Assembly (NCBI RefSeq): GCF_010548375.1
Contig: NZ_JAAGLY010000018.1
Coordinates: 62,001 to 126,000, forward strand
Length of the DNA: 64,000 nt
From: Streptomyces sp. SID13726
GTDB taxonomy: Bacteria; Actinomycetota; Actinomycetes; Streptomycetales; Streptomycetaceae
Direction of reading: 5' to 3'
Below the pieces are notes generated by a model. It searched no databases. It was not told the origin of the DNA and saw only the letters and a program-made list of their open reading frames with translations. Positions 5,610-58,983 of this stretch are shown here, piece after piece (within the stretch, counting starts at the first letter, position 1; each line of letters begins with the position of its first letter). Made by a program: the position numbers and the translations under genes.

Positions 5610-6386
5610 ATGAGAGGCACAGTCACCATCATCGACAAGGGCAACGTGCGGGTGCACAGCTACATGGCTCCCGACACCGCCCTGAACGTAACCACCCAGC
5701 TGATCGAGACCCCGAGCCGGCTCATCGCGGTGGACGGCCAGGTCACGGTCGCGGACGCCGACGAGGTCGTCGAATACGCCAACGGGCTCGGCAAGCCGCT
5801 GGACCGGCTCATCATCACCCACGCGCACCCGGACCACTACCAGGGCGCACACCGCTTCAACGCACCCATCCACGCGCTGGCGGTCACCCGTGATGAGATG
5901 GCGGCACGGGGCGACCTCAAGGACCCGACCGGCATCCCGGTCCCGGCAGCAGAGACAGCCCCCACCGACCTGATCACCCCCGGCACCGAGGTCATCGACG
6001 GTGTCCCTTTCGTCTTCGAAGCCGTTTCCGGCGGTGAGACCACCGACCAGTTGCTGATCCGGCTGCCCGAACACGGCGTGCTGGTGGCACAGGACCTCAT
6101 CTACCACCACACTCATGTGTTCGTCGGAAACAACGACATCGCCCGCTGGCAGGACATCCTGCAGGAGCTCGTCGACCCGGCTTACGACACGGTCCTGCCC
6201 GGACACGGGCTGCCCGCAGGACAGGCTGTTTTCGCCGAGATGGCCGAGTACCTGGAGGCCGCCCGCGAGCTCCTCGGCGACGACGGCGAGGCCTACAAGC
6301 AGGCCATCATCGAGCGCTTCCCCTCCTACGGAAGCCCATTCGTGATCGACATCGGCAACTACTACCTGTTCGGCACCCCCTTCTAG
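5610..6386 (+). CDS. Metallo-beta-lactamase-fold hydrolase
   Basis: The 258-aa protein carries the binuclear metal motif THAHPDHYQG near residue 70, a later Asp in VLVAQDLIYHH and a C-terminal His in VLPGHGLPAG. These are the canonical positions for zinc ligands in the MBL superfamily. The ATG at 5610 is preceded by AGAAGGAG at 5595-5602. It follows the exporter by 151 bp in the same direction and might be co-expressed. Members of this fold hydrolyse thioesters, lactones or sulfate esters; the sequence does not decide among these. It is soluble, with no signal peptide. Confidence 0.85.
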   Translation: MRGTVTIIDKGNVRVHSYMAPDTALNVTTQLIETPSRLIAVDGQVTVADADEVVEYANGLGKPLDRLIITHAHPDHYQGAHRFNAPIHALAVTRDEMAARGDLKDPTGIPVPAAETAPTDLITPGTEVIDGVPFVFEAVSGGETTDQLLIRLPEHGVLVAQDLIYHHTHVFVGNNDIARWQDILQELVDPAYDTVLPGHGLPAGQAVFAEMAEYLEAARELLGDDGEAYKQAIIERFPSYGSPFVIDIGNYYLFGTPF

Positions 6387-6935
6387 ACCGGTGCAGATCG
6401 CGGGCCGTCGGCGGGCTACCGAAGAGTGCCGCAGCGCGGTAGTCCTCGATAGCCCGCCGCCCTCCCTGTTCGTGGACGGGCTCGTCCCCGCACTCTGGGT
6501 CAGAGCCGCGGTCGCCCGGTCGCGGCCCTGGCGCTGCTGATGCCCCGACAGCACACGCCGATAACCCGGCAACAGGCCTCGCCGCAGGGGACGCTCCGGC
6601 CGACGCCCTGATTGCTTTTGTGTCCGTCCTCAGGGTGAGCTCGACCGAAACCAACCCGCACTCGTGGGCACCTGATCGGTGCTCGGCCACTGGTGTCCGT
6701 CGGCCTTCGCTCCGGCGTTTTTGACCTGATTCCTCCCGCTTGGCGGGGTATCGGAGTCGCCGCCGGCGCAACTATGGCGGCGCTTGCCGCACTGGCGGAG
6801 GGTGCCTGTGCCCATGCCACCTCCCGGCCTCCCGCGGAGACACAACGGTTGTCACATGACACATCGAAGCCCTCGGGCCAGGGTCTCCGCCGTTCAGTCC
6901 CGCATCCGGAAGAGACGGGGCATTACGGTGATCGC
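6387..6935. other. Non-coding stretch holding an exporter-gene remnant
   Basis: Apart from the DHA2 remnant at 6463-6565 I find no gene. The open frames here lack family motifs. An in-frame extension of the next gene upstream of 6936 has no similarity to HAD proteins and is not accepted. Confidence 0.5.
6463..6565 (+). pseudogene. Remnant of a DHA2 exporter gene, 3' end only
   Basis: The DNA matches the last part of the exporter gene at 4022-5458. Both read SLFVDGL, then ALWV, then end in LLMPRQH at the protein level, but the copy has lost several bases in between and is out of frame. This indicates that a second exporter copy once lay here or that a duplication was mostly deleted. No start, promoter or upstream part remains. 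Confidence 0.75.
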
Positions 6936-47133: not shown

Positions 47134-47745
47134 TCAGTCGGCGAGGCCGATGGTCACGGGGCCTGCGTTCCAGTCCACTGTGCGGAGCGGTCCGGAGGGA
47201 ACGCGGAACACGCGTCCTGGTGCGGCCGGCCGCCGAATCCGCCGGCGGGCCTCGATCCTGCCGTGCTGGCGCAGGACGAGTTCGACTTCTGCGCCGCAGA
47301 AGAAATCCTGGCAGCGGCCGTTGCGGGCGCGGGTCCTGCGCCGCAGGCCTTCGAGGGTGGCGGGGGGATGGGTGAGGTGAAGGTGTCGCGGATCTCGTCC
47401 GCGGTGAAGCGTTCGCAGACATAGACGATCTTGCCGTATGCGGGGTCGGCGGCAATCCGGTCGGCGTCCTGGTAGGGGCGCGGGAATGCTTCACCGATGC
47501 TGGGCATGCGGGGTGGTGGTGGCAGCTCTTCCCGTTCGGCGAGCTTGATCCCGCCGGAGCCTTTGAGCAGCCGGTGCACGTGTTCGGCTAGCGCCATGCC
47601 GGACGTCAGACCGGTCGAGCGAATGCCGCCGACCACGACGTACTGCTGCTCGGTGTCGACCTCGATGAGGTAGTCGGGGTGGTCGCTTGCCGCGCGCAGG
47701 CCTGCGTAAGCAGCGGTGACCTCTTCATCGAGAAGCTGGGGGCAT
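47134..47745 (-). pseudogene. FAD-dependent oxidoreductase remnant, 5' deleted and frameshifted
   Basis: The minus strand reads VTAAYAGLRAASDHPDYLIE, then VVVGGIRSTGLTSGMALAEHV, then KIVYVCERFTADEIRDTF: the C-terminal part of a glycerol-3-phosphate dehydrogenase/NAD(P)/FAD oxidoreductase with its BFD-like cysteine region. After SPIPP the frame breaks inside a C-run; adding one base restores TLEGLRRRTRARNGRCQDFF and CGAEVELVLRQHGRIEARR to a stop at 47134. The N-terminal FAD half is missing. Expected cysteines (CHC in relatives) are partly changed to YVC. Confidence 0.75.
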
Positions 47746-48270
47746 GATTCTCTCCGCTACGCCGGTCGCCGACGTCATCAACTGCGTGCCCAGGTCAACC
47801 GGGCGTCTCTCCCGCCGGACGCAGACCTCCGTGCGGCCTACGCGGAATACGCGGACTCACTCACGTGGCCGGGATTCCAGGAGCGTGTGCCGCGATTCGG
47901 TCAGGTCGCCGCGGAAACAGGTCCCGAGTTCGCGGAGCTCCGCATGGGCGAATTCCTCGGCCTCGTCAATCAGCAGCCGTAGTTCGAGCTAACCGCCTCC
48001 GGCGCCGTCGCCTCCTCAAGGGGCGGCATGAAGGACGTCACGGTCGCTCGGAAGGATCCTGCGCAAGACGTGCGCGGACCGCCGCCGGACACGACGGACC
48101 CACCCCTCTCAACGGTGGACGACCCCGGCGCCAGAGGACCTGCGCCCTGTCTCCGCCACGCCGGTCACACCGTGAACGGCTGCCCCACACCCCTGGCCGA
48201 GGGCGGGCGAGTGAGCCCGATGGACTCCGCGATCACGGCCCGTCGACCAGGGCGGGGGTACCTTGTGATT
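47746..48270. other. 525-bp region with an unrecognised open stretch
   Basis: A plus-strand frame to the stop at 47980-47982 contains SLPPDADLRAAYAEYADSL and WPGFQERVPRFGQVAAETG, with protein-like composition, but it has no start of its own and I do not recognise it. It may be a gene remnant. The rest is upstream sequence of the phosphatase gene. Confidence 0.35.
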
Positions 48271-50451
48271 ATGGGTACCGACGCCCGTGCCTTCCTCAGC
48301 GATCTCGCTCGGGGCCTCGCACCCCGAGCGGATCAATTGGTCGACGTGATATTGGAGCACCTGCGCGACGAGCTTCCCGATGTGTGGCAGTACGAGGACG
48401 TCGCCGCCCAGGCGCCAGTGGGGTTGTCCGAACACGTCGCGGCCAGTCTGGATTTCCTTGAGCGCGGTCTCGATATGGCCGAGGTCAGGACGCCACCAGG
48501 TGCCATCGAGTTCGCCTGCCGGCTCGCTGAGCTCGGGGTGCCGATCAGCCAGCTCCTTCGCGTCCATCGGCTCGTGCACGCGGGTCTGCTTGATCAGCTC
48601 TATGCGGAAATTGCCCGGGTCGCCGGGTCCCAGGAGCTGAGGAACTCGGCGACGGTCACCCTGAGCGCGATGGCCTTCGAGTACGTCGATCGCACGTCGG
48701 AACAGACTGTCGCTGCATACCAGAGTGCGCGCGACCGCTGGCTGCAGCGGCGGCTGCTGGTGATCAACGAGGCCGGGACACGGATCGGGACCACCCTGGA
48801 CATCACCCGCACGGCGCAGGAACTGGCGGACGTGGGTGCCGACCACCTCGCGGACCTCGTCACCGTCGACCTCCTTTCTTCCGCCTTCCAAGAGGAAGGA
48901 ACGTACGCGGTGGACGGTCCTGCGACGCTCCGCCGCACCGCCCAGGCGGTCTCGGACGGCTGTCCGGATCCAGCACCCGGTACAGGGCAGACGCACACCT
49001 ACCCGGAAGGCTCGGAGCCGGCTCGCGTTCTGGCCACCGGACAGCCCCTCCGGCTCCGCGTCACCGCCGACGACGTCCGGCTGGGGAGGTCGGCGGGCCA
49101 TGACCCCGCCCTGGGCGCCTCGGGCCTGCGCTCCATGCTCCTGGTCCCGCTGTGGGCCCGCGGAAGCCCGCTGGGACTCGCACAGTTCGTCCGCCGTCAA
49201 ACGGACCCCTTCGACGACGACGAACTGCTGCTCGCCCAGGAGATCGCCTCCAGAGCAGCGGTGAACATCGACAACGCCCGGCGTTACACCCAGGAGCGCT
49301 CCACCGCCCTCACCCTCCAGCGCAGCCTGCTGCCGCATCACGTGCCAAAGGAGACCTCTGTCGAGACCGCCTCTCGCTACCTGCCCAGCGGGTCAAGAGC
49401 GGGCGTGGGAGGCGACTGGTTCGACGTGATTCCGCTCTCCGGGGCCCGCGTCGCACTCGTCGTGGGCGACGTGATCGGTCACGGCCTGCATGCCGCGGCC
49501 ACCATGGGCCGGCTGCGGACGGCCGTGCGCACCCTGGCGGACATCGACCTGACCCCCGACGAACTGCTGACCCACCTCGACGACGTGGTCATCCGCCTGC
49601 AGCGCGAGGAGGAAGGCGACACGGACGAGATCAGCGCCACCTGCCTGTACGTGATCTACGACCCCGTCTCCCGCACGTGCTCCCTGGCCAGCGCCGGGCA
49701 CCTTCCGCCGGCCGTGGTGACTCCCCCGGCCGCCGTCGGCGACAACAGCCCCGCCTCCCGGGCGGTCGATTTCCCGGAGCTGCCGATCGGCCCGCCTCTG
49801 GGGCTGGGCGGGCTGCCTTTCGAAACCGCCCAGTTCGAACTGCCACCAGACAGTCGACTGGTTCTGTACACCGACGGCCTCATCCAAAGCCGCTCTCGTG
49901 ACGTCGAGCCCGCCCTCGCCCTGCTGCGCGACGTGCTTAGCCGGGCGCCGGCGTCGCTTGAGGAGACCTGCGACGAACTGCTGTCCGCGCTGCTGCCCAG
50001 CCGCCCCTCCGACGACGTCGCCCTCCTTGTGGCACAGACCAGAGCTCTTGACGCCGATCACGTCGCCACGTGGGACCTCCCCAGCGACCCGGCAGTCGTC
50101 TCCAAAGCCCGCCTCCACGCATCCGATCAGCTAACCGCCTGGGGACTGGAAGAACTGGCCTTCACCACCGAACTCGTGGTCAGCGAGCTGGTGACGAACG
50201 CCATCCGCTACGGCAAGAGCCCCATCCAGCTACGGATGATCCTTCAATCCGCTCTGACGTGCGAAGTGTCAGACGCCAGCAGCACGGCCCCGCATCTGCG
50301 CCGCGCCCGGGTCTTCGACGAGGGCGGCCGCGGCCTGCTCCTCGTTGCCCAGCTCACCGAACATTGGGGCACACGGCACAACCGCGAAGGCAAGGTCATC
50401 TGGGCAGAGCAACTGATTCCGGACTCCCCGGACGGATCTCATCTGCTCTGA
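48271..50451 (+). CDS. SpoIIE/RsbU-type PP2C phosphatase with GAF and anti-sigma-type ATPase domains
   Basis: 726 aa from ATG 48271 (GTG 48265 and ATG 48220 are alternatives). Order: an N-terminal RsbR/PucR-like helical sensor (AASLDFLERGLDMAEVR, then LGVPISQLLRVHRLVHAG), a GAF domain (about 165-330), a PPM phosphatase with GVGGDWFDVIPL, VVGDVIGHGLHAA, LYTDGLIQSR and SDDVALLVA (about 345-590), and a C-terminal HATPase_c domain with ELVVSELVTNAIRYG and DEGGRGLLLVAQL (about 600-715). This is a typical streptomycete fusion of phosphatase and kinase-like halves acting in partner-switching control of anti-sigma factors. It is a single gene with no sigma factor gene beside it. Confidence 0.9.
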   Translation: MGTDARAFLSDLARGLAPRADQLVDVILEHLRDELPDVWQYEDVAAQAPVGLSEHVAASLDFLERGLDMAEVRTPPGAIEFACRLAELGVPISQLLRVHRLVHAGLLDQLYAEIARVAGSQELRNSATVTLSAMAFEYVDRTSEQTVAAYQSARDRWLQRRLLVINEAGTRIGTTLDITRTAQELADVGADHLADLVTVDLLSSAFQEEGTYAVDGPATLRRTAQAVSDGCPDPAPGTGQTHTYPEGSEPARVLATGQPLRLRVTADDVRLGRSAGHDPALGASGLRSMLLVPLWARGSPLGLAQFVRRQTDPFDDDELLLAQEIASRAAVNIDNARRYTQERSTALTLQRSLLPHHVPKETSVETASRYLPSGSRAGVGGDWFDVIPLSGARVALVVGDVIGHGLHAAATMGRLRTAVRTLADIDLTPDELLTHLDDVVIRLQREEEGDTDEISATCLYVIYDPVSRTCSLASAGHLPPAVVTPPAAVGDNSPASRAVDFPELPIGPPLGLGGLPFETAQFELPPDSRLVLYTDGLIQSRSRDVEPALALLRDVLSRAPASLEETCDELLSALLPSRPSDDVALLVAQTRALDADHVATWDLPSDPAVVSKARLHASDQLTAWGLEELAFTTELVVSELVTNAIRYGKSPIQLRMILQSALTCEVSDASSTAPHLRRARVFDEGGRGLLLVAQLTEHWGTRHNREGKVIWAEQLIPDSPDGSHLL

Positions 50452-50766: not shown

Positions 50767-51393
50767 TCATGGGGCGCGGTGGTGGGGCGCCAGGATGGTG
50801 CGGATCTGGTCACGGATGTCGGAGAGGACGGCTTCGTCGCTGCGGTGCAAGTACACGGTGGCGGTGGTGCTGATGTGGATGATCGCGGTGATCACCCTCG
50901 CCAGCGTTGCCGCGTCAGCGGTGTCGATGTAGTCGTCGCGGGTGAGTAGGCCGGTGATGCCGTCCTCGAGGCTGGCGGCAAGGGCGAGGCCCATACGCCG
51001 GTAGGGCTCGGCCGGGTCGCCGAAGACCAGCTCGTGCAGGTACGTGCGGCCGTTCTCGATCTGCTCCCTCACGCACGCCACCACGGGACCGATGAGAGCG
51101 ATGACTCCCTCGAGTACACCGCCCCGCCCGGCGGCGGTGTTCGCGGCGGCGAGGCCGTCGTGGATGGCGGCGGCGAACTTCTCGTTCTGCACCATGATCA
51201 GCAACTCCGCCTTCGTGGACGCGTACCGGTACAGGGTGCCGATCGCTACGTCAGCCCGGTCGGCAATCTGCTGCGTCGTGACCCCGCTGACACCGTGTTC
51301 GGCGAACTGCTCACGGGCTGCGGTCATGATGCGCTCACGCTTGTCCTCCTTGGCCCGCTCCCGGCGTCCGATCGGTATGCGACCGCGTCCCAT
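50767..51393 (-). CDS. TetR-family regulator
   Basis: A 208-aa TetR protein: RRERAKEDKRERIMTAAREQ, VTTQQIADRADVAIGTLYRY and STKAELLIMV form the HTH (residues 12-60). A close relative is at 56196 (both have GRTYL in the ligand domain). The ATG at 51393 is preceded by AGGGGAGG. It is divergent from the quinone reductase/hydrolase operon at 51545 and probably controls it; the gap contains a TGAGT-GG-ACTCA palindrome. Confidence 0.88.
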   Translation of the reverse strand: MGRGRIPIGRRERAKEDKRERIMTAAREQFAEHGVSGVTTQQIADRADVAIGTLYRYASTKAELLIMVQNEKFAAAIHDGLAAANTAAGRGGVLEGVIALIGPVVACVREQIENGRTYLHELVFGDPAEPYRRMGLALAASLEDGITGLLTRDDYIDTADAATLARVITAIIHISTTATVYLHRSDEAVLSDIRDQIRTILAPHHRAP

Positions 51394-51419
51394 GGACAAC
51401 CTCCCCTTGCGAAAAATTC

Positions 51420-51431
51420 TGAGTGGACTCA
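51420..51431. promoter_or_regulatory. TGAGT-GG-ACTCA palindrome, candidate operator
   Basis: A perfect palindrome of 12 bp, followed within 10 bp by a second looser copy, TGAG-CTT-ACTC. It lies in the gap between the TetR start at 51393 and the quinone reductase start at 51545. It differs in spacing from the HxlR-type element although the half-sites look alike. Confidence 0.6.
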
Positions 51432-51544
51432 TAATTGAGCTTACTCGGATTCACTGAGCGAGGCGAGACCCCGACTGGTCAGCCGAACTAGCCAATCTGC
51501 CTACAAACACGGCTGACCAGGATGAAGACAAGGAGAGACGCCTC

Positions 51545-52540
51545 ATGAGAGCGTTCGTCGTCGCCAAGTACGGGGCGCCGCTGCAGGTGGCGGACGTTCC
51601 CGAGCCCATCGTCGGAGAGCACGACGTGCTGGTGCGGGTGGAGGCCGCCGGGCTGAACCCGCTGGATGAGAGGATCCGCGCCGGCGAGTTCAAGCAGGTC
51701 CTGCCCTACAAGCTGCCGCTGATCCTGGGCAACGACGTCGCGGGCACCGTCATCGGCGTCGGGACAGGAGTTCGGGGCTTCAAGCCCGGAGATGAGGTCT
51801 ACGCCCGGCCCGGCAAGGACCGCATCGGCACGTTCGCCGAGCGCATCGCCGTCGCGGAGGGCGACGTGGCGCTCAAGCCCGCGTCGATCAGCATGGAAGA
51901 GGCGGGCTCGCTGCCGCTGGTGGCTCTGACGGCGTGGCAGGCGCTGGTGGAGCGCGGGAGGGTGCGGCCGGGGCAGAAGGTTCTCATTCACGCCGGCGCC
52001 GGCGGGGTCGGTTCGATCGCGATCCAGCTCGCCTCGCACCTCGGTGCGAGCGTCGCCACGACCGCCAGCGGTTCCAACGCAGAATTCGTGCGCGCGCTAG
52101 GCGCGGACACGGTGATCGATTACCGCACCCAGGACTTCGAGCAGCTCCTGACCGGCTACGACTTGGTGCTGGACAGCCTCGGCGGGACGAATCTCGAGAA
52201 GTCCCTGCGAGTGCTGGGGCCCGGCGGCAAGACCATCGGGATCGCCGGTCCTCCGGACCCCGCGTTCGCCCGCGAGGCCGGTCTGAACCCGCTGGTGCGC
52301 CTGGCGGTCGCCGGCCTGAGCAGCAAGATCCGCAAGCAGGCGAAGCGGCTCGGCGTGACGTATGAGTTCCTGTCCATGCGCGCCAGCGGCGACCAACTCC
52401 GCCAGATCACCACCCTCGTCGACCAGGGCGTGGTGCGCCCGGTCGTGGGGAAGGTGGCCGGCTTCGACCAGATCCCGCAGGCGCTGCAGTCCCTGTCCCA
52501 GGGCGGCATCCGCGGTAAGGCCGTCATCGGCAACAGCTGA
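51545..52540 (+). CDS. NADP-dependent quinone oxidoreductase-type MDR, copy 2
   Basis: 331 aa, paralogous to the gene at 24274: MRAFVVAKYG, NPLDERIRAGEFKQVLPYK, GNDVAGTVIGVG, HAGAGGVGSIAIQLASHLGA near residue 154, DSLGGTNLEKSL and SSKIRKQAKRLGVTY. No zinc ligands. The start ATG at 51545 has AAGGAGAG in front. The hydrolase gene follows after 49 bp and the next after 34 bp, so it leads a three-gene operon divergent from TetR. Confidence 0.9.
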   Translation: MRAFVVAKYGAPLQVADVPEPIVGEHDVLVRVEAAGLNPLDERIRAGEFKQVLPYKLPLILGNDVAGTVIGVGTGVRGFKPGDEVYARPGKDRIGTFAERIAVAEGDVALKPASISMEEAGSLPLVALTAWQALVERGRVRPGQKVLIHAGAGGVGSIAIQLASHLGASVATTASGSNAEFVRALGADTVIDYRTQDFEQLLTGYDLVLDSLGGTNLEKSLRVLGPGGKTIGIAGPPDPAFAREAGLNPLVRLAVAGLSSKIRKQAKRLGVTYEFLSMRASGDQLRQITTLVDQGVVRPVVGKVAGFDQIPQALQSLSQGGIRGKAVIGNS

Positions 52541-52589
52541 CCCGCCGCGACCGCGACGGGCGATACGAAATACACAAGGAGAATCCATC

Positions 52590-53456
52590 ATGGGCAGCAC
52601 CGACACCCCGAATGAAGCCGTCATCACCTCCTACGCGAAGGCCCCGGCCCGTACCGTCAGCGCCGGTGGCGTCACCTACGCCTACCGCGAGCTGGGCCCG
52701 AAGGGCGGCATCCCCGTCGTCTTCTTCGTCCACCTCGCCGCGACCCTGGACAACTGGGACCCCCGCATCATCGACCCCATCGCGAAGGGCCGTCACGTCA
52801 TCGCCTTCGACCAGCCCGGGGTCGGGGCCTCCACCGGCCGGGTGCCGGACAGTGTCGAGGCGATGGCCGACGACGCCTACGCCTTCGTCAAGGCCCTCGG
52901 GTTCGACAAGATCGACATCTTCTCCTTCTCCCTCGGCGGCATGGTCGCCCAGGCCCTGGTGGTGAAGCATCCCGAACTCGTCCGCAAGCTCGTCCTCACC
53001 GGCACCGGGCCCAAGGGCGGCAAGGACATCGACAAGGTCGCCGGCACCACGTACGCGGACATGCTGCGCGCCGCCCTGACCCGGTCGGACCCCAAGGAGT
53101 TCCTGTTCTTCAACCGCAACGCCGCCGGTAAGCCCGCCGCGCGTGCGTTTGTCGGCCGACTGAAGGAGCGCACCGCCGACCGCGACGCGGAAATCAAGGT
53201 CAAGGCGTTCCAGACGCAGCTGAAGGCGATCAAGAAGTGGGGGCGCTCCGCCCCCGACGACCTGTCGAAGATCACCCAGCCCACTCTGATCGCCAACGGC
53301 GACAACGACCGCATGGTCCCCTCGGTCCTGTCGGAGGATCTGCACCGGCGCATCAAGGACAGCAAGCTGATCATCTATCCCGACTCCGGCCACGGCGGCA
53401 TCTTCCAGTATCACGAAGAGTTCGCCCCCGTCGCGGCCGAGTTCCTCTCCCGATAA
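52590..53456 (+). CDS. Alpha/beta hydrolase, module copy 2
   Basis: 288 aa: VVFFVHLAATLDNWDPRIID, VIAFDQPGVGASTG, nucleophile SFSLGG near residue 115, NGDNDRMVPSVLSED and YPDSGHGGIFQYH. It is the paralog of the genes at 41319 and 60995; the nucleophile elbow reads FSFSLGG, with Ser replacing the usual first Gly. The ATG at 52590 follows AAGGAG. It is the middle gene of the operon after the quinone reductase. Which substrate links the two is unknown. Confidence 0.88.
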   Translation: MGSTDTPNEAVITSYAKAPARTVSAGGVTYAYRELGPKGGIPVVFFVHLAATLDNWDPRIIDPIAKGRHVIAFDQPGVGASTGRVPDSVEAMADDAYAFVKALGFDKIDIFSFSLGGMVAQALVVKHPELVRKLVLTGTGPKGGKDIDKVAGTTYADMLRAALTRSDPKEFLFFNRNAAGKPAARAFVGRLKERTADRDAEIKVKAFQTQLKAIKKWGRSAPDDLSKITQPTLIANGDNDRMVPSVLSEDLHRRIKDSKLIIYPDSGHGGIFQYHEEFAPVAAEFLSR

Positions 53457-53490
53457 CCGCCCTCTGACCAAGGAAGAGCAGGGCAACACC

Positions 53491-54297
53491 ATGAGCACGA
53501 CACCGACCGCTGCACCCCTGGACGTGAAGAAGCACTTCACCTCCTCGATCCTGCTGTGGGTGCGTAACGACCAGCCACGCCAGACAGGCATGGACCACTG
53601 GAAGGGCCCGCACTCAGGGATCATTTCCGCCACTCCGGGCCTGGAGGAGTACCGGCAGATACACCTCGCCGAGGACAACCCGGGCCGGTGGCCTGTCACC
53701 GACGGGGTCCAGACCACGATCCCCGCCGACCGGAAGATCGACGGCGTCGCGGAAGTCACTTTCCAGTCGTCCCTCGCGCCCCTGAAAGGACGCGAGCAGA
53801 CGAAGCTGGCCTACGCCGACGAGATCAACGTGTTCCGCCGCACCCTGCTCTACGCCGGCCCGCCGAACTCCTCCCGCTGGTACGACGTCGCAGGTCCCGG
53901 ACAGACGGCCGGTGCCCGCGCCCTGATCTACCTGCGCCGCAGAGGCGGAGTCCACGCCGGCGAGTTCCGGAAGTTCGTCAACCAGCAGCTCGCTCCCTCG
54001 CTCGCCGGCACCGGAATGCTGAGGGAACTGCGCACGCAGACATTCCTGCCCTGGGTCGAAAAGCTCTGGGACACCCCGGACGTCGCCCACGACAACCCCC
54101 GCGACCAGCACTTCCACGCCTCAGTCAGCCTCGGGTTCGCCGACACCGCGGCACGGGAGGCCTTCTTCACCGGCGACGTGATCGAGGACCTGTCCAGCCA
54201 GCTGGCACCGCAGGTCTCCGCGATCCACGCCTACGACGTGGCCGCCGCCCTCACCTTCGTCAAGAACGGCGAGATCCTCCCGCACTACCAGGAGTGA
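53491..54297 (+). CDS. Uncharacterised 268-aa protein, possible EthD/dimeric alpha-beta barrel
   Basis: I do not recognise the family with certainty. The protein has two similar-looking halves: MDHWKGPHSGIISATPGLEEY early and GVHAGEFRKFVNQQLAP with LRTQTFLPW later. The repeated pattern of a short acid or aromatic motif plus a LEEYRQ-like helix is suggestive of tandem ferredoxin-like (EthD-type) domains. No signal peptide or membrane helix is seen. It is third in the operon with the quinone reductase and hydrolase, 34 bp after the latter, so it likely works on the same compound. Confidence 0.6.
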   Translation: MSTTPTAAPLDVKKHFTSSILLWVRNDQPRQTGMDHWKGPHSGIISATPGLEEYRQIHLAEDNPGRWPVTDGVQTTIPADRKIDGVAEVTFQSSLAPLKGREQTKLAYADEINVFRRTLLYAGPPNSSRWYDVAGPGQTAGARALIYLRRRGGVHAGEFRKFVNQQLAPSLAGTGMLRELRTQTFLPWVEKLWDTPDVAHDNPRDQHFHASVSLGFADTAAREAFFTGDVIEDLSSQLAPQVSAIHAYDVAAALTFVKNGEILPHYQE

Positions 54298-54389
54298 GCA
54301 GCGCAGGGGGAAAACGGGACCGCCGGACCTGCTCACCGATCCGCCCGCCCCAGACTTCCCGGCCGTACGCCCGCCCGCGTCGCCATCTG

Positions 54390-54905
54390 ATAACCATCAC
54401 CGTGGACCCAGACCATGAGCGGGTAAGGCACTGCCCACCAACATCGCGGTCGAATTCGAGCGCTCCGGGGCACAGGCCGAAAGCGCCTTGGCGATCGCTG
54501 GACGAACTGCACCGGAGGGTGCTCGGCGAAGTGCTCGCCGAGCACCGCCGGCCGCGTTGACCGAGCCGAACTCGTCGGGACTGGCACCGCCTGGCCCGAC
54601 AGCCCCGACGGTCTATCTCAGCTGCGCGAACCCATATCACCGCCAGCTTGTCCGATGACAGCACCGCGCTGCTCATCCGCCCTGCCCGCGTGGGCAGACT
54701 GCCGTTCGACACCATCCTGTCCGCCGAGGTACTGATCCACAGCTTCAAGGCCGGCCCGAAGATGTGCCTGATGGCCACCGGACTGCGCACCGCATACGTT
54801 CCGCGCCCGCTGGAATCAGGCCTCGCCCCCAGCGCGGGACTGGATCGGTCCCGCCGCCACCGACATCCCTGACCCGATCCGCCAACTCGCTCATAGCGGC
54901 TGGTT
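54390..54905 (+). pseudogene. Type II haloacid dehalogenase pseudogene
   Basis: Pieces match the intact gene at 6936 in order: WRSLDELHRRVLGEVLAEH (intact WTNLDDLHRASLDELL), WPDSPDGLSQL (WPDSVPGLEQL), SLSDDSTALLI with GRLPFDTILSAEV (SLSNGNVALLV with GRLPWDTVLSAEL), then ATGLRTAYVPRPLESG (ACGLRTAYVHRPQEYG). The frames change between pieces, and the motif III/IV block from GDPEVYLGAARLL to DDLAAAR is deleted. The N-terminal motif I region is missing. Inactive. Confidence 0.8.
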
Positions 54906-54959
54906 CGACGCCGTCAGGCCGATTTTTGAATCGCGGACGATGAAAATTCGTCGCCGCTT

Positions 54960-55050
54960 TTCCGATGTATGTCCTCATCGGAGTAGGCGAGGATCCCTGC
55001 CTTCGAGACCGGCACTCCGGCATTGTTGACCAGTGCGGCCACGCCACCAC
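54960..55050 (-). pseudogene. SDR gene fragment
   Basis: The minus strand reads VAALVNNAGVPVSKAGILAY then SDEDIHR, the conserved NNAG region of a short-chain dehydrogenase. No cofactor motif or active-site tyrosine segment can be joined in frame. Confidence 0.5.
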
Positions 55051-55316
55051 TGCGTGATGACCAACGCCGATTCCACGCGTCTGCTGTCGCGTCGGCACTG
55101 AAATGACAAGGCCGCCCTTCGACGCGGAGGTACCGCCGTCGGCCTCAACCACGACGGCGCCGCGCTGCTGATCGGGCTGCTGCCGGGTCGACCGCCGTAT
55201 CGTGGCGGCTCAACGACTACGCCGGTGCACGCCTCCTCGACACCAGTCAGCCGTTCGAGCGCCATGGATCATGGGGTCCCGGCGTGAAGAGATCACGTCG
55301 GGACCGAAGAACAGGC

Positions 55317-56030
55317 TCAGGCGTTGGTGGTGCTCAGGTCCGGGTAAAGCGCCTCGACCGGGCCGCTGAGAGCCGCCTTGACCTGCGCGGTCAACTCGTC
55401 GGCCAGGACCTCGTATTCGCCGGCCTCGACAGCGTCGTAGACCCTCGCCACAAGCTGGGCCGGCAGCATCTTGGGTCCGTCAGCGTGCGCAGCCATGCGG
55501 GTGTCGACGTAGCCCATGTGCACACCCGTCACGTGGACGCCCTTGGGCGCGAGCTCGATGCGCAATGAGTTGGTGGCCGACCACAGCGCAGCCTTGGACG
55601 CGCTGTAGATACCGCCGAAGGCGTACCAGCTGGCAACGGAGTGCACGTCGACGAGGACTGACTCCGGCTTGTCAGCGAGGATCGGTGCGAAGGCGCGGGC
55701 GAGGAAGACGGGTCCGAAAAAGTTCGTCTCCATGTTCGCCCGGATGTCCGCCTCGGTAACGTCCAGCAGGCTCGCGCTCGGCGGGTTCGCGCCCGCGTTG
55801 TTGATGAGCACGGTGACATCCGCCGCGGCGGTAACGGCTGCGTCGATCGACGCGCGGTCGGTGACATCGAGAGTCAGGGGGACGATGCGTTCATCGTCCC
55901 AGGCGCGGGGGGAGCGGGCGGTGGCGTAGACCTTGGCGGCGCCGCGGGCCAGGGCGTCGTGGACGAAGTGGGTGCCGATGCCGCCGTTGGCACCGGTCAC
56001 GAGGACGACTGCTCCATTGAGGGAGGGCAT
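55317..56030 (-). CDS. SDR-family oxidoreductase
   Basis: A 237-aa SDR from ATG 56030: VVLVTGANGGIGTHFV, ATARSPR after beta-2 (NADP-like), LDVTDRAS, INNAGANPP near residue 80, and the active-site YSASK near residue 140. VTGVHMGYVDTRM and EVLADELTAQVKAALSGPVE closely parallel the SDR at 3196 (LHVGYMDTDM, EILADNAARQAQAALSGGVS), so these are paralogs. It is divergent from the TetR gene at 56196, which probably controls it. Confidence 0.9.
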   Translation of the reverse strand: MPSLNGAVVLVTGANGGIGTHFVHDALARGAAKVYATARSPRAWDDERIVPLTLDVTDRASIDAAVTAAADVTVLINNAGANPPSASLLDVTEADIRANMETNFFGPVFLARAFAPILADKPESVLVDVHSVASWYAFGGIYSASKAALWSATNSLRIELAPKGVHVTGVHMGYVDTRMAAHADGPKMLPAQLVARVYDAVEAGEYEVLADELTAQVKAALSGPVEALYPDLSTTNA

Positions 56031-56144
56031 TGGTGTTCCTTCTTTCAAGGGCCGTAAAGCGCGTGGCTGCGCGTAGAGGGAGCCAACGGCTCCTTGCCTC
56101 GCCGTGGGAGAATGAGCGGAGCCACATTCGAGCCCACGCGTTAA

Positions 56145-56172
56145 TGACTGAAACCATAACTGAGCGCAGTCA
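56145..56172. promoter_or_regulatory. Inverted repeat between SDR and TetR genes
   Basis: TGACTG (56145-56150) and CAGTCA (56167-56172) form spaced inverted arms; a further CTGA/TCAG symmetry lies within. The element sits 24 bp before the TetR start and in the divergent gap of 165 bp. Confidence 0.55.
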
Positions 56173-56195
56173 GATTCTACCCGAAGGACACCGTC

Positions 56196-56798
56196 ATGCC
56201 TGTCGCCTCCCAGCCGGTCGGACGGCGCGAGCGGAACAAGCAGGACAAGCTCGACCGCATCATCGCTGCAGCCAGCGAGCTGTTCGCCGATCGCGGCATC
56301 GACGACGTCACAACCCAGGAGATCGCCGACAAGGCTGACATCGGCACCGGGACGCTTTTTCTTTACGCCAAGACCAAGGGCGAGCTTCTCCTGCTTGTGC
56401 AGAACACCAAATACGCCGAAGCGCTCGAGCAGGGTCGGGCAGACGCCGAGAGCACCCCAGGCGTGTTGGACGCGGTGCTGGCAATCGCCCGGCCGCTCGT
56501 GGAATGCAACCGCACCCAGATCGACAACGGACGCACCTACCTGCGAGAGATGGCCTTCGGCAACCCCGAAGAGCCGCGGCACGGCGAAGCACTCGCCATT
56601 GTCGCGCAGACCGAGGAGGCCATCGCCGCCGTAATACGCCGAGACGAGCGGGTCACCGAGGGCGATGCCGCGACGCTGGCACACATCGTGTCCGCCGTGA
56701 TGTTCCTCAGCATGGCAGCGAGCCCAAACATCACCTTGAGCGTCCAGGAGCTCATGCACGAAATCCGAGGGCAGGTTGCCGTCCTACTGCCTCGCTGA
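56196..56798 (+). CDS. TetR-family regulator
   Basis: A 200-aa TetR protein related to the one at 50767: RRERNKQDKLDRIIAAASEL, VTTQEIADKADIGTGTLFLY and KTKGELLLLVQ (HTH, residues 9-60), then QIDNGRTYLREMAFGNPEE in the ligand domain. The ATG at 56196 has GAAGGA upstream. Divergent from the SDR at 55317, its probable target. With the pair at 50767/51545 it shows that the same regulator type was combined with different reductases. Confidence 0.88.
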   Translation: MPVASQPVGRRERNKQDKLDRIIAAASELFADRGIDDVTTQEIADKADIGTGTLFLYAKTKGELLLLVQNTKYAEALEQGRADAESTPGVLDAVLAIARPLVECNRTQIDNGRTYLREMAFGNPEEPRHGEALAIVAQTEEAIAAVIRRDERVTEGDAATLAHIVSAVMFLSMAASPNITLSVQELMHEIRGQVAVLLPR

Positions 56799-57921
56799 AG
56801 CACGGCTCAGGTCGGGCTCCATCAACGAGCAGCAGGCACAGCTCAAGACGCGCGTCGCCGTAGTGAAGCCGCCAACAGCAGGGGCCACGCCGAGCCGAGC
56901 CGGTGATGTTCTCGCGCCCCCGCGGCGGCTTTCGTACGCTCGGACGCAGCGTGTCAGCCGTGGTGTTCTTCCGCGGCCGCCTTGCTGAGCACCTTCTCCC
57001 AGGCAGCCGATGGCCTGGGCAACTGCCGTCGTTCAGCAGCCCCGGCAGCAGCTCCGACCAGCCTCACCCTGAACAACAGTGGGGCGCACGCCTCCTCGAC
57101 CACCATGACCGCCCGCGAAGCTGAAGACGTCACCGTGTGCGCTGCGCGACCGCATCGACTCCTTCAACTCCGCCAGCAGTACCGGCGCTCCGCCCCGACC
57201 GAACTGTGCGCACAGCCAAGGCCACTTCCTCGATCGTCATTCAGCGACCAGCCGTTTCGGAAACCAGGCCGGTGGGGCGGATTCCCAGGGCCCACAGCAC
57301 CTTTGTGCACTTCTCACCGAGGCCGGCCTGGCACAGGCGGGCCTTCTGGACGCGACGGCCCTCGAGTTGGCTCGCCAGTTCCTGGGTGGGCAGTCGGCAT
57401 GCGGGCGTAGCCGATTCCCACCGGTCGCTCAGTGCTGGGCGCGGGCACCGGCGTCAGCCCCCGCTTCCAGTCGCGGCCGGGACCGCGATTGTCGGCACCG
57501 GGGCTTCGAGTTCGTCACACAGCGCGGGCACGAGGACGAAACACGGGTGTGGCACTTCGCCGCGGTCTTCCCGCCCCGGGGGCGGCAGGCACCGCCCGCC
57601 GGAACCTCACAATTCGGGCGCCACATCCACCTCAGAGCACCTCAGGATCCCGTAACACGCCAGTTACGAGAGGACTTTCACGAACGGCGACGTGCCAAAA
57701 ACACGACCACCTCCGCCACTCGCCCGGGCCCTACTTGCCGAACATCCGGCCGCATAGTATTATGATCATAATTTACAGGTCGTGCTGAGGACAGCTCGGC
57801 CGGCACAAGGCGTGACGGGTGCCTCGCCGGGCCCAAAAGCAGGAGGGCCCGGCGACCTCGTCCCCACGGTGCCCGCACTCGCCCCTTGGCGATCCATCGT
57901 TCATTACCTGAGGAATCACCC
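56799..57921. other. 1.1-kb intergenic region with operator site 8
   Basis: No recognisable gene despite several open frames; no family motifs found on either strand. The best palindromic operator copy lies at 57759, followed by a 150-bp leader before the second ene-reductase. Confidence 0.45.
57759..57772. promoter_or_regulatory. Recurrent palindromic operator, site 8 (perfect palindrome)
   Basis: ATTATGATCATAAT is the complete 14-bp palindrome that the other copies approximate. It lies 149 bp before the start of ene-reductase copy 2. Confidence 0.75.
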
Positions 57922-58983
57922 ATGCTCAACGCCCTGTGGAACCCGGCCGTCGTCGGAGAGATATCCCTGCCGCACCGGCTGGCGATGGCGCCTCTGACGC
58001 GGAACCGGTCCACCCCGGACGGTGTGCCGACCGAGTTGAACGCCGAGTACTACGCCCAGCGCGCCTCGCACGCCCTCATCATCACCGAAGGCACCCAGCC
58101 CTCCGACGACGGCCAGGGCTACCCCGTGACCCCGGGCATCTACACGGTTGAGCACATCGACGGCTGGCGCAAGGTCACCGACGCCGTCCACAAGGCCGAC
58201 GGACGCATCGTCATCCAGCTCATGCACGCCGGACGCATCGCCCACCCCGACAACACCCCCCACCACCGGCAGCCGGTAGCCCCCTCCGCCATCAAGCCGG
58301 CAGGCGAGATGTTCACCGCGACCGGTCTCAAGCCCATGCCCCTGCCCCGCGAACTGTCCACCGACGAGGTCGCCGCGACGGTCGACGACTTCCGCCGCGC
58401 CGCCGCGGCCGCCATCGCGGCCGGCGCCGACGGCGTCGAGATCCACGCGGCCAACGGGTACCTGGTGCACCAGTTCCTCGCCGACAACACCAACCAGCGC
58501 ACCGACCAGTACGGCGGCTCCATCGACAACCGCATCCGCTTCGCCGTGGAGGTCGCCACCGCCGTGGCCGACGAGATCGGCGCCGGCCGCACCGGCCTCC
58601 GGATCTCCCCCGGCAACCCCTTCAACGACATAGCGGAGAGCGACACCCACGAGCTGTACCCGGCACTTGTACGCGCCCTCGCCCCTCTCAACCTCGCCTA
58701 CCTGCACATCGCCCACGGCGGCGACGACGAACTCCTGCACACCCTGCGCAAGTTGTGGCCGACCACGCTGCTCCTCAACCGGGCCGGCACAGACATAGCC
58801 ACCCGCGCCAAGGACATCGAGGACGGCCTGGCCGACGTCATCACTGTCGGCTCGATGGCACTCGCCAACCCCGACCTGGTCGAGCGCGTACGCGCCAGCG
58901 CCCCGTTGAACACCCCCGACCCCGCCACCTTCTACGGCGGCGGCGCCGAGGGCTACACCGACTACCCCACCCACGCTGCCTGA
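57922..58983 (+). CDS. Old Yellow Enzyme-family ene-reductase, copy 2
   Basis: 353 aa, nearly the same protein as the gene at 34529: [57 protein letters not shown] and [17 protein letters not shown]. The DNA is identical over 151 bp (58037-58187 against 34644-34794) and diverges more in the middle, indicating recent duplication or gene conversion. The main protein difference is around residues 120-145 and 225-245, which form loops over the active site in this family. The ATG at 57922 follows CTGAGGA. Confidence 0.93.

Follow-up and report, generated by a model that had tools for sequence, protein, structure and literature searches.

What might a 268-residue protein do when its own sequence matches no family, and when its gene follows a reductase gene and a hydrolase gene and is flanked by regulators of the TetR family? 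We examine this question for P268, which is encoded in a 64,000-nucleotide stretch of Streptomyces sp. SID13726 DNA (hereafter the window, within which positions are counted unless another locus is named).

Organization of the locus

P268 is the third of three genes of the same orientation, QOR, ABH and P268 (Table 1). The intergenic gaps are 49 bp (QOR–ABH) and 34 bp (ABH–P268), and each gene start is preceded by a ribosome site of the AAGGAG or AAGGAA type. ABH begins at the ATG at 52590, and its stop codon ends at 53456. The coordinates and the gene order given by an earlier sequence-only reading of this DNA are confirmed, and Pfam agrees with it on the reductase, the hydrolase and the TetR regulator; the divergent TetR gene (TetR1) lies just outside the range 51545–54297. 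Two further features frame the locus. Upstream of TetR1, an 807-aa frame (48028–50451) carries GAF, SpoIIE phosphatase and HATPase domains (Pfam), and downstream of TetR2 there is a gene for an old-yellow-enzyme (OYE)-type ene-reductase (57886–58983; Pfam). An OYE-type gene is also found near the module in three other loci (L016, L033 and L034).

Table 1 Features of the P268 locus, in window coordinates
Feature	Position	Strand	Evidence
TetR1, divergent TetR-family regulator	50767–51432	-	Pfam TetR_N, E 7.4e-15
Promoter/operator, double palindrome TGAGTGGACTCATAATTGAGCTTACTC, overlapping the -10-like CATAAT	51408–51453	+	Conserved in 19 Streptomyces loci
QOR, quinone-oxidoreductase-like medium-chain reductase, 331 aa	51545–52540	+	Pfam ADH_N, ADH_zinc_N_2
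ABH, alpha/beta hydrolase, 288 aa	52590–53456	+	Pfam Abhydrolase_1, E 1.8e-28
P268, tandem EthD-like protein (predicted), 268 aa	53491–54297	+	Profile comparisons, Pfam matches of relatives, AlphaFold models
SDR oxidoreductase, 237 aa, divergent from TetR2	55317–56030	-	Pfam adh_short (part of a longer open frame)
Second, related operator-like site upstream of TetR2	56133–56178	+	One mismatch to the pattern
TetR2, second TetR-family regulator	56196–56798	+	Pfam TetR_N, E 4.3e-13; synteny

The catalytic triad of ABH is intact, with residues S114, D238, D240 and H268 kept in all 36 orthologs, and its closest solved relative is 4pw0 (E 1.3e-61). No NCBIfam model was reached by ABH; PcaD, BioH and others score far below their cut-offs, and the reaction of ABH can therefore not be named. 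QOR does not contain any cysteine, and by sequence its closest PDB entries belong to the quinone/enone reductase group at large.

P268 as a doubled relative of EthD

The single sequence of P268 matched no Pfam family at E ≤ 1 (the cut-off of EthD, PF07110, was not reached) and no PDB sequence at E ≤ 10, and its match to NCBIfam TIGR02118, 'EthD family reductase' (E 0.11), falls far below the cut-off. To this extent the earlier statement that no family can be named holds. It fails once profiles of the relatives are used, and it is because of these relatives, not of the single sequence, that the family becomes nameable. The N-terminal half of P268 (approximately residues 14–134) matched the EthD profile with a probability of 96.5% (score 53.0, as compared with 20.4 for the best of 30 column-shuffled controls), and the C-terminal half (approximately residues 136–262) matched it weakly (36.4%, score 26.0; best control 8.0). 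In these comparisons the halves were taken from a 16-row alignment (A3) and the EthD side consisted of 12 sequences of related genomes. When ten relatives were scanned with Pfam, five exceeded the cut-off of EthD, namely four tandem proteins, of which two matched it in two stretches, and a single-domain EthD protein (L072); the other five scored below it. Among close orthologs, 5 of 27 (alignment A4) matched Pfam EthD at E ≤ 1, with a best E of 4e-4. A cyanobacterial plasmid protein with 25.8% identity over 96% of P268 is annotated as 'EthD domain-containing protein', so that the wider family already has a name in the databases. Searches of the PDB with profiles A3 and A2 (E ≤ 10) found no EthD, chalcone isomerase or other related structure; the two weak matches in one of these searches, a ribosomal protein and a globin, are unrelated to P268.

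The halves are also related to each other, as the earlier reading had proposed. A local hhalign alignment of the N-half with the C-half reached 86.4% (score 38.0, 81 columns), above the best of 60 column shuffles (17.8) and the reversed control (14.0), and the global alignment (-glob) gave 52.6% (score 28.7). Judged from these profile comparisons, P268 is thus a divergent, distant and doubled relative of EthD, with a known superfamily and, as predicted, a known fold. The match is not to a known non-catalytic family, since the fungal EthD-domain proteins MdpH and ClaH are reported as decarboxylases (in the part consulted of PMC10890192). The corresponding part of a later review describes MdpH1 as a decarboxylase and MdpH2 as an anthrone oxidase (PMC9890505).

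Five residues of P268 are invariant in the 16-row alignment: W37, H41, G85, D110 and R181. Two of them belong to an N-half motif, W37-x3-H41-x7-PG-x3-Y54, in which the Pro-Gly pair is P49 and G50. Its aromatic-x3-His-x7-Pro-Gly spacing is that of most EthD sequences compared, the EthD motif being derived from these sequences and not from a published definition. In both half–half alignments W37 lies opposite V163 and H41 opposite L167, a position occupied by Leu in 36 and by Val in 1 of 37 orthologs. An EthD-type W37/H41 site is therefore possible in the N-half only, and we infer that this site is catalytic. P268 accordingly shares with the EthD family (PF07110, TIGR02118; fungal MdpH/TpcK type) a homologous N-half and the motif spacing, and differs from it in being a fused tandem with the histidine in one half only, and in having a sequence that by itself stays below the Pfam and NCBIfam cut-offs.

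Predicted structure and its nearest folds

AlphaFold models were obtained for the window P268 (31 sequences; mean pLDDT 64.4, pTM 0.70) and for the Devosia ortholog (27 sequences; mean pLDDT 65.3, pTM 0.70), with no gain in confidence from the latter. Both display two halves with a ferredoxin-like beta-alpha-beta-beta-alpha-beta order. The C-half is mostly confident in both models, the N-half has pLDDT values mostly below 60, and the helix that carries His41 is below 50. Full-length Foldseek matches are tandem dimeric-barrel proteins, at TM values of about 0.5 or less on these low-confidence models: the anthrone oxidase-like protein 5f9p, the chalcone isomerase (CHI) of E. ramulus, sulfur oxygenase reductase and putative monooxygenases. 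Together with the half–half profile match, the two models and the fold searches support the earlier guess of tandem ferredoxin-like domains. The structural matches support the fold class of the modelled protein without choosing a function.

The best full-length structural rows were tandem anthrone oxidase-like proteins, PenE (9kdp; VIA on the first model, Z 11.7, rmsd 3.6, 184 aligned) and 5f9p (Z 11.4, rmsd 3.8, 192 aligned), both again among the top rows with the second model. On this basis P268 could be an oxygenase that needs no cofactor, of the kind seen in tandem anthrone oxidases, with quinols or anthrones as substrates that QOR would deliver in reduced form. However, many tandem barrels lie within 1–2 Z of these rows, on low-confidence models, and P268 has no profile match to ABM (PF03992). 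Its halves reached only 0.09% and 0.07% against the ABM profile, against the 96.5% of the N-half with EthD, and membership of ABM was rejected; in the same profile comparison, EthD and ABM matched each other at 89.7%. An oxygenase of this type seems quite unlikely.

The full-length match to E. ramulus CHI on the first model (Foldseek E 7.3e-5, 13% identity, TM 0.45, rmsd approximately 11; VIA Z 9.3, rmsd 4.8, 197 aligned) suggests a different chemistry. In the portions consulted of PMC9694015 and PMC8361940, bacterial CHI is described as having a catalytic ferredoxin-like domain, with His33 as the base, and a second, solvent-exposed one. The P268 models show two ferredoxin-like halves, the N-half has an invariant histidine, and a reductase is encoded in the operon. 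In a CHI-like reaction, His41 might open or close a ring of the flavanone or chromanone type, the enone might be reduced by QOR or by the OYE nearby, and ABH might cut a C–C or ester bond. Yet the match is weaker with the second model (Foldseek E 1.5e-3; VIA Z 8.6, rmsd 5.8, 197 aligned), the PDB profile searches contain no sequence signal to CHI, structural alignments show 9–14% identity without detectable sequence homology, and QOR is absent from six loci (see below). The hosts of bacterial CHI are moreover described as anaerobic, in the part of the literature consulted, a difference from the hosts of P268. The models make CHI-like chemistry possible, but we consider it very unlikely. A paper on an isoflavone catabolism cluster does not mention EthD, and we recognised no description of the P268 operon or of its operator among the papers listed from open-licence PMC text.

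For the C-half alone, 4-methylmuconolactone methylisomerase (3hfk, 3hds) is among the best single-domain structural matches (VIA Z 10.3, rmsd 3.0, 111 aligned). This enzyme is a single domain, and the half of P268 that it matches is the one without the EthD-type histidine. The EthD structure 2ftr also matches the C-half only (Z 9.4, rmsd 3.1, 99 aligned).

Conservation and distribution of the module

A scan of genome contigs for close relatives yielded 37 loci (57–88% best-segment identity to P268), and whole-genome searches recovered more distant relatives, down to approximately 23–28% identity. In 36 of the 37 loci the gene immediately upstream of P268 is ABH, with a gap of −3 to 115 bp. The exception (L030) starts at the contig end, so that the pairing is found in 36 of 36 loci for which this DNA exists, and it spans ten genera, from Streptomyces to Devosia. 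At synteny identity thresholds of 60% (45% for QOR), a TetR2-type gene follows P268 within 4 kb in 34 of the 37 loci, QOR precedes ABH in 30, the SDR gene follows P268 in 23 and TetR1 is found ahead in 22. Six loci (Jiangella, Microbacterium, Promicromonospora, Nocardioides, Devosia and Aeromicrobium) have ABH–P268–TetR2 without QOR. The smallest conserved unit is thus ABH–P268–TetR2. The earlier claim of tight linkage to a reductase and a hydrolase stands for the hydrolase and is less universal for the reductase; because these six loci pair ABH and P268 without QOR, the reading of P268 as third enzyme of a compact pathway is right in part only.

The strict pairing with ABH also suits a reading in which P268 does no catalysis itself and instead assists or binds ABH or a redox enzyme, a role claimed for EthD of Rhodococcus sp. 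B2, which is reported in the part consulted of PMC7934444 as a ferredoxin in a P450 system. This reading, which we consider unlikely, has to face the strongly conserved polar residues of P268, including the invariant histidine in a known motif, and we recognised no P450 or ferredoxin gene in the operon.

Devosia is an alphaproteobacterium, and horizontal transfer of its module (L036) is therefore likely. In three loci (L039, L040 and L041) P268 is split or partial (near 6001–6720 in locus coordinates) while the upstream ABH is kept, so that P268 may be dispensable. Of 41 loci searched, 19 have a crotonase gene behind P268, whole in 17 of them. This gene is absent from the window (54297–55317), where the flanking DNA is still recognisable and only short flanks align. 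Elsewhere in the window, an 88-aa frame (47716–47982) resembles the C terminus of this crotonase (48%, E 1e-16).

The occurrence of the P268 gene is sporadic. Matches were found in 24 of 392 Streptomyces genomes (18 full length at ≥81%, the SID13726 genome included), in 14 of 394 genomes of the class and, with a distant profile and six candidates scored per genome, in at least 17 of 396 genomes of the phylum, of which 14 have nothing but short matches. Carriage on known plasmids was set aside: only 3 of 72,556 plasmid records hold P268 relatives, all of them remote (25–26%). No P268 relative was found in the phage collection.

A shared operator type

A block upstream of QOR is common to 19 Streptomyces loci, the window included. 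Its consensus is TTGACA (in the window, TTGCGA), followed after nine or ten bases by TGAGTGnACTCATArTTGAGTGTACTCGGATT, the first palindrome of which extends into a −10-like CATAAT/CATAGT. When 16 other loci were scored with a matrix built from these 19, 13 of them, among them Devosia, had a site of at least 13 before the first gene of the operon; no site was detected in L023 or L039, and the only one in L024 is weak and precedes TetR2. Nothing in five shuffled windows scored above −14.7. The window site before TetR2 scores weakly (−7.7), yet above the unrelated sites of the window. On the contig of Devosia ureilytica, the ABH–P268–TetR2 module is accompanied by the Streptomyces operator type.

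The strict two-palindrome pattern had no match in the window; a looser one had exactly two, a number reached in none of 100 shuffles. In the 10.9-Mb draft genome the looser pattern recovered the same two sites only, and none in the reversed control. With only two pattern sites in the genome, the regulon seems confined to the P268 locus, and the double palindromes are the putative binding sites of the TetR proteins.

Neighbours of distant relatives

In one distant locus (L061:6509–17391), three P268 paralogs occur within 10 kb, one of them with an open frame that starts 3 nt downstream of the gene for a BphC/HsaC-like extradiol dioxygenase. Next come a DmpE-like hydratase and a 4-hydroxy-2-oxovalerate aldolase (DmpG), and an FAD hydroxylase lies upstream; against NCBIfam, the aldolase is above its cut-off and the dioxygenase and hydratase are below theirs. 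In a second locus (L062), a P268 homolog is located directly before an SDR gene and approximately 3 kb from a 4-hydroxy-2-oxovalerate-type aldolase. These meta-cleavage-type neighbours point to aromatic catabolism for the relatives concerned, which have only 28–37% identity to P268. Among 60 genomes of the genus of L061, only its own has the meta-cleavage paralog, and the neighbours of the remaining distant relatives have no common theme.

Proposed function and significance

P268 probably performs one step in the breakdown or detoxification of a small compound. The explanation that we favour, and hold to be somewhat likelier right than wrong, is a small regulon, limited to this locus, for catabolism or detoxification, with P268 as a tandem EthD protein whose His41 carries out acid–base chemistry beside ABH. 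The fusion of the two halves would create a pseudo-dimer with one working pocket, where His41, aided by residues such as D110 and R181, would provide general acid/base catalysis for an enolisable carbonyl substrate. The reaction could be a double-bond shift, a decarboxylation or a ring opening. ABH would hydrolyse the substrate or the product, and QOR would reduce an activated double bond or a carbonyl. TetR1 and TetR2 would repress transcription by occupying the double palindrome at the −10 region and be released on binding the compound. The explanation draws on the profile match to EthD, the invariant residues, the pairing with an intact ABH, the operator sites and the meta-cleavage neighbours of distant relatives. 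Against it weigh the failure of P268 itself to reach any library cut-off, the empty PDB profile searches, the pLDDT below 50 in the His41 region, the three loci that keep ABH with a split or partial P268, the two loci without an operator (L023 and L039) and the ferredoxin role reported for a Rhodococcus EthD.

A more specific picture extends the comparison with CHI, and as a whole it is very unlikely in our estimation. In it, P268, ABH and the reductases would be the aerobic equivalent, in actinobacteria, of the chalcone isomerase/ene-reductase/hydrolase route of gut bacteria. A ring-opening EthD-type isomerase would feed the hydrolase in a route for flavanone- or chromanone-like compounds, and expression would be turned on when two TetR repressors leave one shared operator type.

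On the favoured explanation, a tandem EthD protein acting beside ABH, the locus bears on a family in which proteins with a known reaction are few. Because this doubled relative of EthD is associated with one hydrolase across ten genera and with one simple operator, the ligands of the TetR proteins could reveal its substrate. If the reaction proves to be a ring opening or a decarboxylation, P268 would provide a usable enzyme and an explanation for a sporadic trait of soil bacteria.
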